Shown piece after piece: positions 19,893 to 51,548 of a stretch of 64,000 bases of DNA. The position numbers and the translations under genes are program-made. Where the stretch lies: contig CAJIYM010000003.1 of assembly GCA_905181635.1 (NCBI GenBank), positions 62,001 to 126,000 of the forward strand. The letters run 5' to 3'. The number at the start of each line of letters is the position of its first letter. Position 1 is the first letter of the stretch. The notes beneath the pieces were generated by a model. That model searched no databases and was not told the DNA's origin. It saw nothing but the letters and a program-made list of their open reading frames with translations. This DNA is from an uncultured Flavobacteriales bacterium. Lineage in GTDB: Bacteria > Bacteroidota > Bacteroidia > Flavobacteriales > BACL11.

Positions 19893-21890
19893 ATGCAATT
19901 TAAACTTGAATCAGAATTTTCACCTACAGGCGATCAACCATCAGCAATAAAACAATTAGTTGACGGACTAAATGATGGAGAGGATTTTCAGACTTTATTA
20001 GGAGTTACCGGATCAGGGAAAACATTTACAATTGCAAATGTGATTAAAAAGGTTAATCGCCCTACCCTTGTATTAAGCCATAACAAAACACTTGCAGCGC
20101 AACTCTTTAGTGAATTTAAGCAATTCTTTCCTGATAATGCAGTGGAGTATTTTGTTTCTTACTACGATTACTATCAACCAGAGGCTTATATTCCTAGCAC
20201 AGGAACTTATATTGAAAAAGATTTATCTATAAATGAAGAAATTGAAAAATATAGACTGAATACAACTTCCTCACTACTTTCTGGAAGAAAAGATGTGATT
20301 GTAGTTGCCTCCGTAAGTTGTATTTACGGAATAGGAAATCCTGAAGATTTTCATAATGGAATAATTGATATTGCTCAAGGAGATATTATTAGTAGAGATC
20401 AGTTTTTACAAAAACTTGTCCTTGCACTTTACAGCCGTACAACTGCAGAATTTACTAGAGGAAATTTCAGAGTAAAAGGAGATACAGTTGATGTATTTTT
20501 AGCACATAATGATATTGCCTATCGTTTTCATTTCTTTGGAAATGAAATTGAAGAAATTGAGAGCTTTAATCCTGAAAACGGGAAGATAATTGATTCCCTT
20601 GAAGAAGTTAAAGTTTATCCTGCCAGCATCTTTGTTGCCTCAAAAGAAAAAATATACGGTGCTATCGCAGCTATACAAGATGACTTAAGAAAACAAGTCG
20701 ATTATTTTCAGGAAATCGGGCTTTCTAACGAAGCAAAACGATTAGATGAACGCACCAACTTTGATCTAGAAATGATTAAAGAACTAGGGTATTGCTCAGG
20801 AATTGAAAACTATTCTAGGTATTTTGATGGCAGAAATGAAGGAAGTCGACCTTTCTGTTTATTAGATTATTTTCCAGCTGATTTTATTACTGTAATTGAT
20901 GAAAGCCATGTAACCCTACCACAAATTCGTGCCATGTATGGCGGAGATAAATCAAGAAAAATCAACTTAGTAGAACACGGATTTCGTTTACCTGCCGCAA
21001 TGGATAACAGACCACTTAAGTTTGAAGAATTTGAAACAATAAACAATCAAACTATCTATGTAAGTGCTACTCCTGCAGATTATGAACTAGAAAAATCTGA
21101 AGGTATAATAGCAGAACAAATTATTCGCCCAACAGGATTACTTGAACCTATAATTAACGTGAGACCTTCTAAAAATCAAATAGATAACCTTCTAGAAGAG
21201 ATTAGAATACGAATTGAAAAAAGAGAACGAATACTTGTTACTACACTTACCAAAAGAATGGCTGAAGAATTCAGTAAATACCTTACAAAATTTAGTATTA
21301 AATGTCGCTATATCCATTCAGATGTTGACACGCTAGAAAGAGTAGAAATATTAAACGGATTAAAGGAGGGAGAATTTGATGTATTAATTGGGGTAAACTT
21401 ATTAAGAGAAGGGCTGGACTTACCTCAAGTAAGTTTAGTTGCTATTATGGATGCTGATAAAGAAGGATTTTTAAGATCAGAAAGAGCATTAACACAGACT
21501 GCTGGAAGGGCTTCTCGAAACATTAACGGACTTGTAATTATGTATGCAGATAGAATTACCAACTCAATGAGAAAGACTATTGATGAAACTAATAGAAAAA
21601 GAGAAAAACAACAAGCCTACAATAAAAAAAATAGCTTAACACCTCAACCTTTACTTCAGAAAAAAGGAAATTCATTAACTGATAGTTTAAATCCTTATAA
21701 AATTACAGGACCAAGTACTAATAAAAATATTCCAAATATTGAAAATGCTAATAGCGATCAATTAAAAAAGATGATTAGTCATACAAAAAGAGAAATGCAG
21801 CGCATGGCAAAAAATCTAAATTTTATGGAAGCTACACATTTGCGAGACGAATTGCAAGAACTAGAAGAAAAGTTAAAAAATAAGGCATAA
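19893..21890 (+). CDS. uvrB: UvrABC excinuclease subunit B
   Basis: 665 residues, normal length. Seen: N-terminal SPTGDQPSAIKQL, Walker A GVTGSGKTFT, the beta-hairpin VSYYDYYQPEAYIP, DEAD-type motif VIDESHVTLPQ, helicase motifs VSATPADYE and TQTAGRASRNING, and the C-terminal UVR domain that contacts UvrC. It verifies DNA lesions in nucleotide excision repair. It ends the comA-uvrB run and is followed by a strong terminator. Confidence 0.97.
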   Translation: MQFKLESEFSPTGDQPSAIKQLVDGLNDGEDFQTLLGVTGSGKTFTIANVIKKVNRPTLVLSHNKTLAAQLFSEFKQFFPDNAVEYFVSYYDYYQPEAYIPSTGTYIEKDLSINEEIEKYRLNTTSSLLSGRKDVIVVASVSCIYGIGNPEDFHNGIIDIAQGDIISRDQFLQKLVLALYSRTTAEFTRGNFRVKGDTVDVFLAHNDIAYRFHFFGNEIEEIESFNPENGKIIDSLEEVKVYPASIFVASKEKIYGAIAAIQDDLRKQVDYFQEIGLSNEAKRLDERTNFDLEMIKELGYCSGIENYSRYFDGRNEGSRPFCLLDYFPADFITVIDESHVTLPQIRAMYGGDKSRKINLVEHGFRLPAAMDNRPLKFEEFETINNQTIYVSATPADYELEKSEGIIAEQIIRPTGLLEPIINVRPSKNQIDNLLEEIRIRIEKRERILVTTLTKRMAEEFSKYLTKFSIKCRYIHSDVDTLERVEILNGLKEGEFDVLIGVNLLREGLDLPQVSLVAIMDADKEGFLRSERALTQTAGRASRNINGLVIMYADRITNSMRKTIDETNRKREKQQAYNKKNSLTPQPLLQKKGNSLTDSLNPYKITGPSTNKNIPNIENANSDQLKKMISHTKREMQRMAKNLNFMEATHLRDELQELEEKLKNKA

Positions 21891-21921
21891 AAAAAACGGG
21901 CATTAAGCCCGTTTTGTTTTT
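21891..21921 (+). terminator. Intrinsic terminator between uvrB and the cold-shock gene
   Basis: AAAACGGGC (21893-21901) pairs with GCCCGTTTT (21907-21915) around an ATTAA loop, with T-runs on both strands. It serves both convergent genes. Confidence 0.93.
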
Positions 21922-25913: not shown

Positions 25914-26846
25914 TTAGTTAAATAGTGAATCTATAAATTCATTTTTATTAAAGACTTGTAAATCTTCCACCCCCTCTCCAACACCAATATAACGAACTGG
26001 AATCTGAAACTGATCAGAAATACCAATTACCACCCCTCCTTTTGCCGTACCATCCAACTTGGTAAGCGCTAAAGAATTTACTTTAGTGGCTTTTGTAAAC
26101 TGAGTTGCCTGTTCAATAGCATTTTGTCCTGTTGAAGCATCTAACACCAACATTACATCATGCGGTGCTTCAGGAATAACTTTAGCCATTACATTCTTTA
26201 TCTTAGTCAATTCGTTCATTAAATTGATTTTATTATGTAATCTTCCTGCAGTATCAATAATTACTACATCAGCATCACTTGCTTTTGCTGATTGTAAAGT
26301 ATCAAAACAAACTGAAGCAGGATCAGATCCCATATCTTGTTTTACAATTGCAACTCCAGCTCTATCTGCCCAAATAACTAACTGATCAACTGCTGATGCA
26401 CGAAAAGTATCAGCTGCACCTAATACAACTTTTTTACCCTGCTGCTTAAATTGATGTGCTAATTTTCCGATTGTAGTTGTTTTACCTACGCCATTAACAC
26501 CAACAACCATAATTACATAAGGACCATCAACTTCAGGAATTTCTTCATAACCCTCCTTCATTAATAAGGAAATTTCTGCTTTTAAGAAATCATTTAATTC
26601 AGAAGTATTGATGTATTTATCTTTTGCTACTCTTTCCTCTAATTTCTCAATAATTTTAAGTGTTGTCTCGACACCAATATCTGAAGTGATTAAGGCCTCT
26701 TCAATATCATCAAGCGCCAACTCATCAATAATTGATTTACCTGCAACAGCACGTGAGAGTTTATTAAAAACATTTTCCTTAGTTTTCTCTAAACCTTTAT
26801 CAAGTTTAACTTTTTTATCTTTTGAAAAAAAACCGAATATTCCCAT
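25914..26846 (-). CDS. ftsY: Signal recognition particle receptor FtsY
   Basis: 310 residues from the ATG at 26846 (MGIFGFFSKDKK); an upstream ATG at 26870 would add eight residues overlapping the terminator hairpin and is less likely. It has a short N-terminal lysine-rich membrane-contact region instead of the long acidic A domain, then the NG domain with VNGVGKTTTIGKLA, DTAGRLHNK and TKLDGTAKGG. It docks SRP-ribosome complexes at the membrane. The -7 motif lies in the loop of the preceding gene's terminator. Confidence 0.96.
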   Translation of the reverse strand: MGIFGFFSKDKKVKLDKGLEKTKENVFNKLSRAVAGKSIIDELALDDIEEALITSDIGVETTLKIIEKLEERVAKDKYINTSELNDFLKAEISLLMKEGYEEIPEVDGPYVIMVVGVNGVGKTTTIGKLAHQFKQQGKKVVLGAADTFRASAVDQLVIWADRAGVAIVKQDMGSDPASVCFDTLQSAKASDADVVIIDTAGRLHNKINLMNELTKIKNVMAKVIPEAPHDVMLVLDASTGQNAIEQATQFTKATKVNSLALTKLDGTAKGGVVIGISDQFQIPVRYIGVGEGVEDLQVFNKNEFIDSLFN

Positions 26847-26867
26847 AATTATTTGCTTTAATAAACA

Positions 26868-26905
26868 CAAAAAGCTCCTTTCAAAGATAGAAAGAAGCTT
26901 TTGTT
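26868..26905 (-). terminator. Terminator hairpin after DUF4295 with a promoter motif in its loop
   Basis: AAAAGCT (26870-26876) pairs with AGCTTTT (26896-26902), then after a C-A mismatch CTTTC pairs with GAAAG, leaving a seven-base loop. T-rich sequence follows on the minus strand. The loop contains the ftsY -7 motif. Confidence 0.8.
26882..26889 (-). promoter_or_regulatory. -7 promoter motif for ftsY inside a terminator loop
   Basis: TATCTTTG on the minus strand: seven bases occupy the hairpin loop and the final G closes the stem. It lies 35 bases before the ftsY ATG. Confidence 0.55.
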
Positions 26906-26921
26906 TGCGTATAATTAAATA

Positions 26922-27074
26922 CTATTTTTTTGCAAAGAATTCTTTTACTTTATCCTTTGGTACAATTTCACTTTTAAAAGAGTATGATCCACTTGCTGTT
27001 TTAACCATTTTCACAGCTTTAGTAAAAGCTTTTGCTCCTTTTTTCTGTAATGATGCTACTGTCTTTTTTGCCAT
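26922..27074 (-). CDS. DUF4295 small basic protein
   Basis: 50 residues, starting MAKKTVASLQKKGAK and ending EFFAKK; rich in lysine and with no acidic core. This matches DUF4295, a short protein found almost only in Bacteroidota immediately after rpmG, where it is suspected to be a ribosome-associated protein. The start is 6 bases after the rpmG stop. Function is unproven. Confidence 0.9.
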   Translation of the reverse strand: MAKKTVASLQKKGAKAFTKAVKMVKTASGSYSFKSEIVPKDKVKEFFAKK

Positions 27075-27320: not shown

Positions 27321-28970
27321 TTATTGCTTTTTAATATCAATAAAGAATAAGTCATCTCTTACCTTAAAATCATGCTTATCAAAGCCTCCTAAATCTTGCT
27401 CCTTCCACTCCGTATTAGGGTATATCCAAAAATCCTTACTTCCTGTATTTATCAAAATAGGCATGTCAAATTCAGGGATTGCTTCCCATCTATATACTAA
27501 GGTGTAATTTCTACCTTCTTTCTGCAAATTATATTGAAACTCGGGAATATCCTTATTCTTCAAATATTGATTAAAGAAATCAGTGAAATCTTTTCCTGAT
27601 TTTTTATTGATATAGTTAATGATTTCTTGCCCATCAACTGTTTCATGTTTAAAATCATTAGCAATTCCTTTTATCATTTCAAACCACAGCTTATCATCCT
27701 CAATCAAACTTCTAAGCGTATGCAACATTAACGACCCTTTATTATACATGTCAGAACTTCCTTCTGCATTCACATGATAAGGACCGATAACAGACTTGTC
27801 ATTTCTGACACTTCCTTTTTGATTATTTACATAGCTTAACATTGCATCATATCCATACATACATTCAACATATAACACCTCAGAATAAGTGCAAAAACCT
27901 TCATGCACCCACATATCAGCAATATCATTAGTAGTGATAGAATTACCCCACCATTCATGTCCACTTTCATGCACAATTATAAAATCAAAATTTAGTCCAT
28001 CAATAAAGCGAGTATTTCCATGATAACCTGGTAGATAATCATTTCCATAAGCGATAGCTGACTGATGCTCCATTCCTAAGTAAGGTGTTTCAACTAAAGC
28101 ATAACCATCATTCCAAAAAGGATATGCCCCAAAATATTTTTCGAAACATTCCATCATAGGCTTTACCTGTTTAAAATGTTCTTTTGCTTTCTCTAAATTA
28201 TCATGTAAGACATAATAATCCATACGCAAAGTATCTTTTTCCGAAATAAACGCTTCAGAAAAATGCTCATAATCTCCAATATTTAGCGTTACATTATAAT
28301 TATTAATAGGATAGGAAACAAACCATTCACTAACATTTACCATAGAATTAAAATACTGATTCCATTCTGTAGTATCTTTTCTTAAATCACCATTTGAAAT
28401 TATTTTTGAAGGATACCGAGCCGTACAGGTAATACGCATACTATCTGGCTCATCAGATTGATGGTCCTTACATGGCCACCAAACACTAGCCCCTAATCCT
28501 TGACAAGAAACTCCAATCCAAGGATTTCCATTATCATCTTTTTTCCATGAAAAACCCCCGTCCCATGGTGCATTTACTGCTTCCTTAGGATAGCCACTAT
28601 ACCAAATCTTTACATTTGCATGTTCTGACTTTTTAAGCACTCTTGGAAAATCAATATAAATTGCATCAAACTCACGACTATACTCAAGTTGGACTCCTTC
28701 AAATTGAATAAGCAAAACTTCCATATTAAATGCCAAGTCAATTTGCATCTTATCAAAATCAGAAACAACTGTAAAATGAATAATATTGTAAGATTTTTCT
28801 AAAGATTTTTCCTGATGATCAATCATTACAAATAAGTCATAAAAAGTTACATCATAGCATGTTCTCATTAAAGAAAGACCTCCTCTTAGACTATCTTTAC
28901 GACTAAATGGCTGAGAAACTACTAATAACACACAGCAAAATGCAGCAACAAAGAGTATTAACTTTCTCAT
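27321..28970 (-). CDS. M1-family zinc metallopeptidase, secreted
   Basis: 549 residues with an N-terminal signal peptide (hydrophobic stretch at residues 3-19). The zinc site is HESGHEWWG, with the third ligand glutamate in WVHEGF, and a GMEH block in place of GAMEN binds the substrate N-terminus. It is shorter than full M1 aminopeptidases and lacks the large C-terminal helical domain, as is common for Bacteroidota periplasmic M1 proteins. It likely trims peptides in the periplasm. It follows the lipoprotein gene by 21 bases, and both are inserted between rpmB and rpmG. Confidence 0.92.
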   Translation of the reverse strand: MRKLILFVAAFCCVLLVVSQPFSRKDSLRGGLSLMRTCYDVTFYDLFVMIDHQEKSLEKSYNIIHFTVVSDFDKMQIDLAFNMEVLLIQFEGVQLEYSREFDAIYIDFPRVLKKSEHANVKIWYSGYPKEAVNAPWDGGFSWKKDDNGNPWIGVSCQGLGASVWWPCKDHQSDEPDSMRITCTARYPSKIISNGDLRKDTTEWNQYFNSMVNVSEWFVSYPINNYNVTLNIGDYEHFSEAFISEKDTLRMDYYVLHDNLEKAKEHFKQVKPMMECFEKYFGAYPFWNDGYALVETPYLGMEHQSAIAYGNDYLPGYHGNTRFIDGLNFDFIIVHESGHEWWGNSITTNDIADMWVHEGFCTYSEVLYVECMYGYDAMLSYVNNQKGSVRNDKSVIGPYHVNAEGSSDMYNKGSLMLHTLRSLIEDDKLWFEMIKGIANDFKHETVDGQEIINYINKKSGKDFTDFFNQYLKNKDIPEFQYNLQKEGRNYTLVYRWEAIPEFDMPILINTGSKDFWIYPNTEWKEQDLGGFDKHDFKVRDDLFFIDIKKQ

Positions 28971-28991
28971 TAGAAATATTTAATTTCAATA

Positions 28992-29630
28992 TTATTTAGA
29001 AAGGGTAATATAACATGCAGAACTAAATGCAGTCGGTAAACCTGGAATAAGATCAATCTCACCTGAAAATGTTAAATTCATATATCCAGAATTTTCTGTT
29101 TCAATTTTTCCTGATCCATAAATTTGAACTGGAATTGGAAATCCAAAACCAGCATCTATTGAAGCAGTTTGTTCTGAAATTAATATGCTACCAAAATAAT
29201 CAATAGTTGCAGAAACTTGTGCATCACCTATATATATAAATAATGTTTCTTCTACAGTTCCTTGAACATCAATAGATTCAGGCAATTGATCGTCAAGTAA
29301 AATAACTTGACCTAAAACATCTATCTCTTCACAATCAGGATTTATATTCCAAACTCCTAAAGCTATATCGAAAGCGTATAAACAAGTACTATCATCAGAA
29401 TTCGCAATTGACGAATAATTAATTGCTAAAACATCCATACATCCTAATGTCGCTGGAATACATGAACCATCATTAGTATTAGCTAATGGATTGAAGTTTA
29501 TAGCAGTTAAATCTGTACACCCCATTAGAATTTGTGTAGCCAACGGAGATTCATCCTCTTTTTTACATGAAGAAATCACCATAATGACAGCCAATAATAA
29601 AATGGTAGATATTTTAAATATATTTTTCAT
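28992..29630 (-). CDS. Lipoprotein with two GCxDxxAxN cysteine repeats
   Basis: 212 residues. The signal peptide ends ISSC, giving a lipidated cysteine at residue 22. Two repeats follow: GCTDLTAINFNPLANTNDGSC and a second with GCMDVLAINYSSIANSDDSTC (the first is residues 38-58). Such calcium-like aspartate/cysteine repeats are frequent in secreted proteins of marine Bacteroidota. The C-terminal ~120 residues are beta-rich with no recognised family. Its promoter motif sits in the loop of the rpmB terminator. Function unknown. Confidence 0.82.
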   Translation of the reverse strand: MKNIFKISTILLLAVIMVISSCKKEDESPLATQILMGCTDLTAINFNPLANTNDGSCIPATLGCMDVLAINYSSIANSDDSTCLYAFDIALGVWNINPDCEEIDVLGQVILLDDQLPESIDVQGTVEETLFIYIGDAQVSATIDYFGSILISEQTASIDAGFGFPIPVQIYGSGKIETENSGYMNLTFSGEIDLIPGLPTAFSSACYITLSK

Positions 29631-29654: not shown

Positions 29655-29687
29655 AAAAAAGTTGCCATCAAAGATAGCAACTTTTTT
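29655..29687 (-). terminator. Terminator of rpmB with a promoter motif in its loop
   Basis: A perfect 11-bp stem, AAAAAAGTTGC (29655-29665) with GCAACTTTTTT (29677-29687), encloses an 11-base loop. A T-run follows on the minus strand. The loop contains TATCTTTG reading towards the lipoprotein gene. Confidence 0.88.
29669..29676 (-). promoter_or_regulatory. -7 promoter motif inside the rpmB terminator loop
   Basis: TATCTTTG on the minus strand lies wholly within the loop and 38 bases before the lipoprotein ATG at 29630. Confidence 0.55.
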
Positions 29688-51480: not shown

Positions 51481-51500
51481 AAGAATATTTTATTAAAACA

Positions 51501-51534
51501 ATTAAGGACTCGCAAAAATAAGCAAGTCCTTAAT
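51501..51534 (-). terminator. Terminator of the HmuY-like gene with a promoter motif in its loop
   Basis: A perfect 10-bp stem (ATTAAGGACT, 51501-51510, with AGTCCTTAAT, 51525-51534) encloses a 14-base loop; a T-rich run follows on the minus strand. The loop contains TATTTTTG pointing at the next gene. Confidence 0.87.
51513..51520 (-). promoter_or_regulatory. -7 promoter motif inside a terminator loop
   Basis: TATTTTTG on the minus strand lies within the loop, 32 bases before the ATG at 51480. Confidence 0.5.
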
Positions 51535-51548
51535 TTTTACTTCAATTT

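Follow-up and report, generated by a model that had tools for sequence, protein, structure and literature searches.

The rpmG-DUF4295 to ftsY boundary

The window analysed here is a stretch of 64,000 nucleotides from an uncultured Flavobacteriales bacterium, the source assembly of which comprises 1.09 Mb at 32% GC and is 70% complete. On the minus strand of the window, a DUF4295 gene (26922..27074; Pfam PF14128, 1.6e-16) is the last gene of a transcript shared with rpmG, whose identity is supported by Pfam, and is followed in the same direction by ftsY (25914..26846; Pfam SRP54, 2.3e-75). Genes for a lipoprotein-like product and an M1 peptidase (27321-29582) separate rpmB from rpmG, whereas most other families of the order have the two directly in succession, rpmG after rpmB, with a gap of about 6 to 30 bases.

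Between DUF4295 and ftsY, the minus-strand sequence from 26902 to 26870 is AAAAGCTTCTTTC-TATCTTT-GAAAGGAGCTTTT, then TGTGTTTATT. This forms a hairpin of 13 pairs with the loop TATCTTT and a folding energy of -15.0 kcal/mol, which was also picked up by a mechanical terminator scan. About 20 bases separate the stop codon of DUF4295 from the beginning of the hairpin, and 23 bases lie between its end and the ATG of ftsY; a T-rich tract (26861..26873, minus strand) follows the stem core. A stable stem-loop with a T-rich tract directly after it is the arrangement expected of an intrinsic terminator, and 26870..26902 is the predicted intrinsic terminator of rpmG-DUF4295, with both stem and loop conserved across the family.

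The initial annotation described this hairpin as holding a TAnnTTTG promoter motif in its loop, with the last G in the stem and the motif aimed at ftsY, and this description is borne out. The -7 box TATCTTTG occupies 26882..26889 on the minus strand and is made up of the loop and the first G of the stem. The ftsY ATG at 26846 lies 35 bases beyond the box, as was originally noted, and this is a normal promoter distance, as the genome-wide 10-90% range is 5 to 80 bases with a median of 24. The hairpin, the motif and its orientation are directly seen; actual termination, actual initiation and the exact start site are inferred.

The TAnnTTTG box and further sites in the genome

Statistically, TAnnTTTG is the promoter box of this genome. 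Its density is 3.77/kb on the sense strand of co-directional gaps and 5.26/kb in divergent gaps, compared with 0.87/kb antisense and 0.88/kb genome-wide. In F. psychrophilum, 5'-end RNA-seq has placed this box at -12 to -5 from the start, and dRNA-seq of B. thetaiotaomicron shows it to be canonical there too. Among 305 intergenic -7 sites of the genome, there is no signal for a TTTG/TTG box at -33, so the lack of a clear -33 box, remarked on in the initial annotation, is uninformative. A sigma-70 promoter scan is likewise uninformative here, with 90 promoters found and 89.4 expected. In promoters of this genome, T is enriched 4 to 5 bases before the box and C is the commonest base directly after TTTG (47%); at the ftsY and rpmB sites the following base is A.

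Four terminators in the 1.09 Mb assembled carry the box in their loop, three inside the window and one outside, and all four lie between co-directional genes with every box pointing downstream. The two further sites in the window are those at which the layout had been said to recur. The first of these is the terminator of rpmB (L28; 29709..29948, minus strand; Pfam PF00830, 3.5e-28), at 29655..29687 on the minus strand, which has TATCTTTG across its loop (box 29676-29669) and a stem that reaches over the T-tract; its motif is found in 9 of 12 family genera. The next, at 51500..51535 on the minus strand, lies between an HmuY-like gene and a 62-aa gene, carries TATTTTTG in its loop (box 51520-51513), and is restricted to the same genus (6/52 family genomes). 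The fourth element sits beyond the window at a co-directional boundary, C3:298218-298241. The stems of the four sites are mutually unrelated. Near 874-901 and 21889-21919, the loops of the convergent terminators are AGAT and TTAAT (minus strand) and, in agreement with the initial annotation, are free of the motif.

Also observed was a family of repeated terminators, ACCCACTCnnnnGAGTGGGT, each with the conserved block (T)TTTTGGTGGGCCTTACGGTCCTAAGTTCGAAC behind it, in eight copies that lie mostly near contig ends (L002:393, L004:10068, and L028:2271-5734, on contigs C1 and C3). Genes ahead of these terminators often end in sequence like GAGAAGAAAATAATTCTTGAATAA.

Frequency of the box at co-directional and convergent terminators

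Gene boundaries and terminators in the statistics come from home-made callers, and many of the genomes are incomplete metagenome assemblies. The genome itself contributed 54 co-directional and 36 convergent terminators, the wider scan covered about 3.9 Mb, and the set of family relatives 800 kb. The box occurs in the loop at 4/54 co-directional and 0/36 convergent terminators of the genome (Fisher p 0.12), and in the family relatives at 6/38 and 0/36 (p 0.015), some of these sites being orthologous to those of the genome so that the counts are not independent. Pooled, with identical stems removed, the figures are 9/139 and 1/92 (p 0.044). The bias toward co-directional boundaries put forward in the initial annotation is weak and not significant in the genome alone and reaches significance among relatives and in the pooled set. 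Across the order outside the compact families, the counts of 1/59 and 1/63 give no enrichment and indicate that the loop layout does not hold for Flavobacteriales in general. Expressed as density, TAnnTTTG occurs in loops at 9.9/kb at co-directional boundaries and at 0 at convergent ones, against the genome-wide 0.88/kb. In a set of 450 permuted motifs that includes the real one, 9 reached the loop-box count of the genome, as did 6 of 400 loop shuffles. The shuffles gave a mean of 1.66 compared with the 4 observed; significance in both tests is only moderate, since shuffling or permuting in T-rich loops readily yields the motif again. Taken by themselves the counts are modest evidence, and it is comparative genomics that carries the case for a terminator-promoter.

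The loop layout is the minority form of a broader habit, in which the -7 box sits on the T-tract or immediately behind it. This arrangement occurs at 16/54 co-directional and 2/36 convergent terminators of the genome (p 0.004) and at 25/139 and 3/92 in the pooled set with identical stems removed (p 0.0004). At co-directional boundaries of the genome, the TTT of the box is often supplied by the T-tract. Ahead of the hairpin, the motif is about as dense as in the background; the ascending arm has none, and from the loop onward the density climbs. This profile fits a rule by which a promoter must start its RNA past the ascending arm, since its own transcript would otherwise be terminated, and the loop is the extreme allowed position for a -7 box near a terminator.

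Conservation of the box and of the hairpin

Most genera share an identical TATCTTTG at the rpmB boundary, even though outside the genus four-fold synonymous identity to the genome has fallen to 0.34-0.60. Three genera keep the box without a terminator hairpin: g12 and g4, both with TATATTTG, and g9 with TACATTTG; their gaps give weak folds unlike the terminator. As g12 is nested among hairpin-bearing genera on the tree, the hairpin was lost there and the box retained. The converse is seen in g3 and g7, where the hairpin is retained and the final G of the box is lost. Conservation of the motif and its decoupling from the hairpin are thus both directly seen.

Across 12 family genera at the ftsY boundary, the stem GCTTCTTTC/GAAAGRAGC is largely kept, while the bases on either side of the hairpin diverge, and four-fold synonymous identity to the genome is 0.48-0.75 outside the genus. 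The loop is TATCTTT or TATTTTT plus G in 7 of the 12 family genera sampled, and the same loop is found in another family (f14). Families f3, f4, and f5 and one f7 genome have a terminator at the same position with a loop that lacks the box; 11 of these gaps hold TAnnTTTG downstream of the hairpin, mostly within about 20 bases. No genome with a loop box has a second exact box in the ftsY gap. With the box either in the loop or after the T-tract and no second copy, the ftsY promoter is probably old, having shifted only in its placement relative to the hairpin. The hairpin is kept and an exact box is absent from the gap in g6, g8, g10, the g4/g14 group, one g2 genome, and family f8, and in such lineages ftsY must depend on read-through or on a divergent promoter. 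In records L070-L073, L077-L079, and L092-L097, apart from L096, neither the loop of the ftsY terminator nor the gap holds an exact -7 box.

At C3:298218, all 12 pairs of the stem stay paired in 15 distinct hairpins, with double compensatory changes at two outer pairs and several pairs alternating between T-A and T-G. The loop is TATTTTTG or TACTTTTG in 14 of the 15, with one TACTTTTG, which fits the box, and one TGTTTTTG, which does not. The next ATG, presumably the true start given its conserved MRI/MKK-type frame, comes within a few bases of the T-tract in many records, and a promoter would have little space between the two.

When orthologous terminators of the genome and its relatives are compared, the loop box is retained in 6 of 7 cases, the changes being only at an n position or an outright loss (g3). 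As controls, convergent loops are identical in none of 13 orthologous pairs, even between species of one genus, and co-directional loops without the box in 2 of 11. Many genera whose synonymous sites are largely randomised still have the loop motif, which varies mostly at its two n positions. Judged by this comparison, the loop-box sequence is under constraint, unlike other loops in these genomes.

Proposed mechanism and alternative explanations

Given these data, the element is very probably an overlapping terminator-promoter. At a co-directional boundary, the predicted terminator and the predicted next promoter share DNA, which at the level of sequence is what such an overlap consists of. 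The proposal in the initial annotation, that the end of one transcript and the start of the next are combined in a compact element, gains support from the conservation of the loop, the decoupling of motif and hairpin, the strand and neighbour bias, and the post-T-tract box elsewhere. A polymerase finishing rpmG-DUF4295 would copy both arms, allowing the RNA hairpin to form and the U-tract to release the transcript. The DNA between the arms would double as the -7 box of a housekeeping promoter for ftsY, with initiation predicted about 5 bases past the final G, in the descending arm near 26877 (minus strand), if the box is placed as in F. psychrophilum. An RNA starting in the descending arm would have no ascending arm, so the terminator could not refold, and the old T-tract would become the 5' leader of the ftsY RNA. 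With its box in the loop, a promoter would be about as near to a terminator as it can come and still escape being stopped there. Predicted folds are consistent with this proposal: full transcripts fold at -19.5 (ftsY), -23.1 (rpmB), and -15.7 kcal/mol (C3:298218), and RNA from the predicted starts at -4.4, -1.5, and -0.6 kcal/mol, respectively. Such weak folds suggest that the element would stop polymerases arriving from upstream and stay silent for those that start within it.

It is conceivable, if unlikely, that the element is a coupling device that does more than save space. A polymerase released at the T-tract could be handed to the overlapping -7 box and re-initiate, so that downstream output would follow how often the ribosomal-protein transcript is terminated; alternatively, a box held single-stranded in the loop of an extruded cruciform could open more easily under supercoiling.

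The terminator could instead be an ordinary one with a chance match in an AT-rich loop, ftsY being expressed by read-through. Loops are short and T-rich, shuffled loops often recreate the motif, the Fisher test in the genome alone falls short, and some lineages have no exact box at all. Chance would not explain why this loop is kept across genera where ordinary loops change completely, why the box outlives loss of the hairpin, or why variation falls mostly at the n positions, and we regard a chance match as distinctly improbable. Conservation of loop and stem in sequence, and the position of two sites after ribosomal-protein genes or their operon, could also be read as signs of an RNA element, such as a protein-binding or stability loop at the 3' end of ribosomal-protein mRNAs, with no promoter involved. 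Against this, the motif persists without a terminator hairpin at rpmB in g12, g4, and g9 and lies outside the hairpin in other families; moreover, the third and fourth sites are not behind ribosomal genes, and the convergent terminators of the family lack the motif. This makes an RNA element very improbable. Alternatively, the inverted repeat may be an operator, a transcription-factor site laid over a promoter, with its likeness to a terminator secondary. Stem conservation within the family does exceed what pairing needs, but the four sites have unrelated stems, the one at C3:298218 varies by G-U wobble and compensatory pairs, and every site has a T-tract just after a stop codon, so an operator is the least probable of these explanations. 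An overlapping terminator-promoter remains the reading that we prefer.

Implications and comparison with known systems

The boundary offers a natural case, backed by comparative genomics, in which signals for termination and initiation would be nested within about 33 bases. If this is true, some promoters of compact genomes are overlooked by standard annotation, in which terminators and promoters are handled as separate intervals. Overlap of this kind bears on the recycling of polymerase after intrinsic termination, which has been studied in single-molecule work (PMC6978380, PMC6978322), and on why some operons remain adjacent (PMC7055797).

The element has features of two familiar signals. 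Like an intrinsic (Rho-independent) terminator, it has a GC-bearing stem, a short loop, a T-tract after a stop codon, and, at C3:298218, compensatory changes, but its loop is under sequence constraint. With the Bacteroidota housekeeping promoter (sigma-ABfr / sigma-A) it shares the TAnnTTTG box, but there is no -33 signal in this genome and the box lies inside a terminator loop. A phrase search with partial coverage of the literature turned up no earlier account of a terminator loop that holds a -7 or -10 box, and the Salmonella overlaps were the only precedent that it returned.

Terminator-promoter overlap is itself already known from Salmonella, where inter-operon overlaps occur at tufB-secE, secE-rpoBC, and S10-spc-alpha (Brandis, Cao and Hughes 2019, as described in PMC7055797), and where, by the same description, interrupting the tufB-secE overlap lowers both expression and fitness. 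As far as that description goes, the resemblance holds in outline: an operon's terminator and the promoter of the co-directional operon behind it overlap, ribosomal and translation genes are involved, and the arrangement is conserved. The Salmonella overlaps are those of sigma-70 enterobacteria; the box here is the Bacteroidota -7 box and lies in the loop of the hairpin. The present element would be a variant of the known overlaps, with another sigma class and with the core promoter box in the terminator loop.
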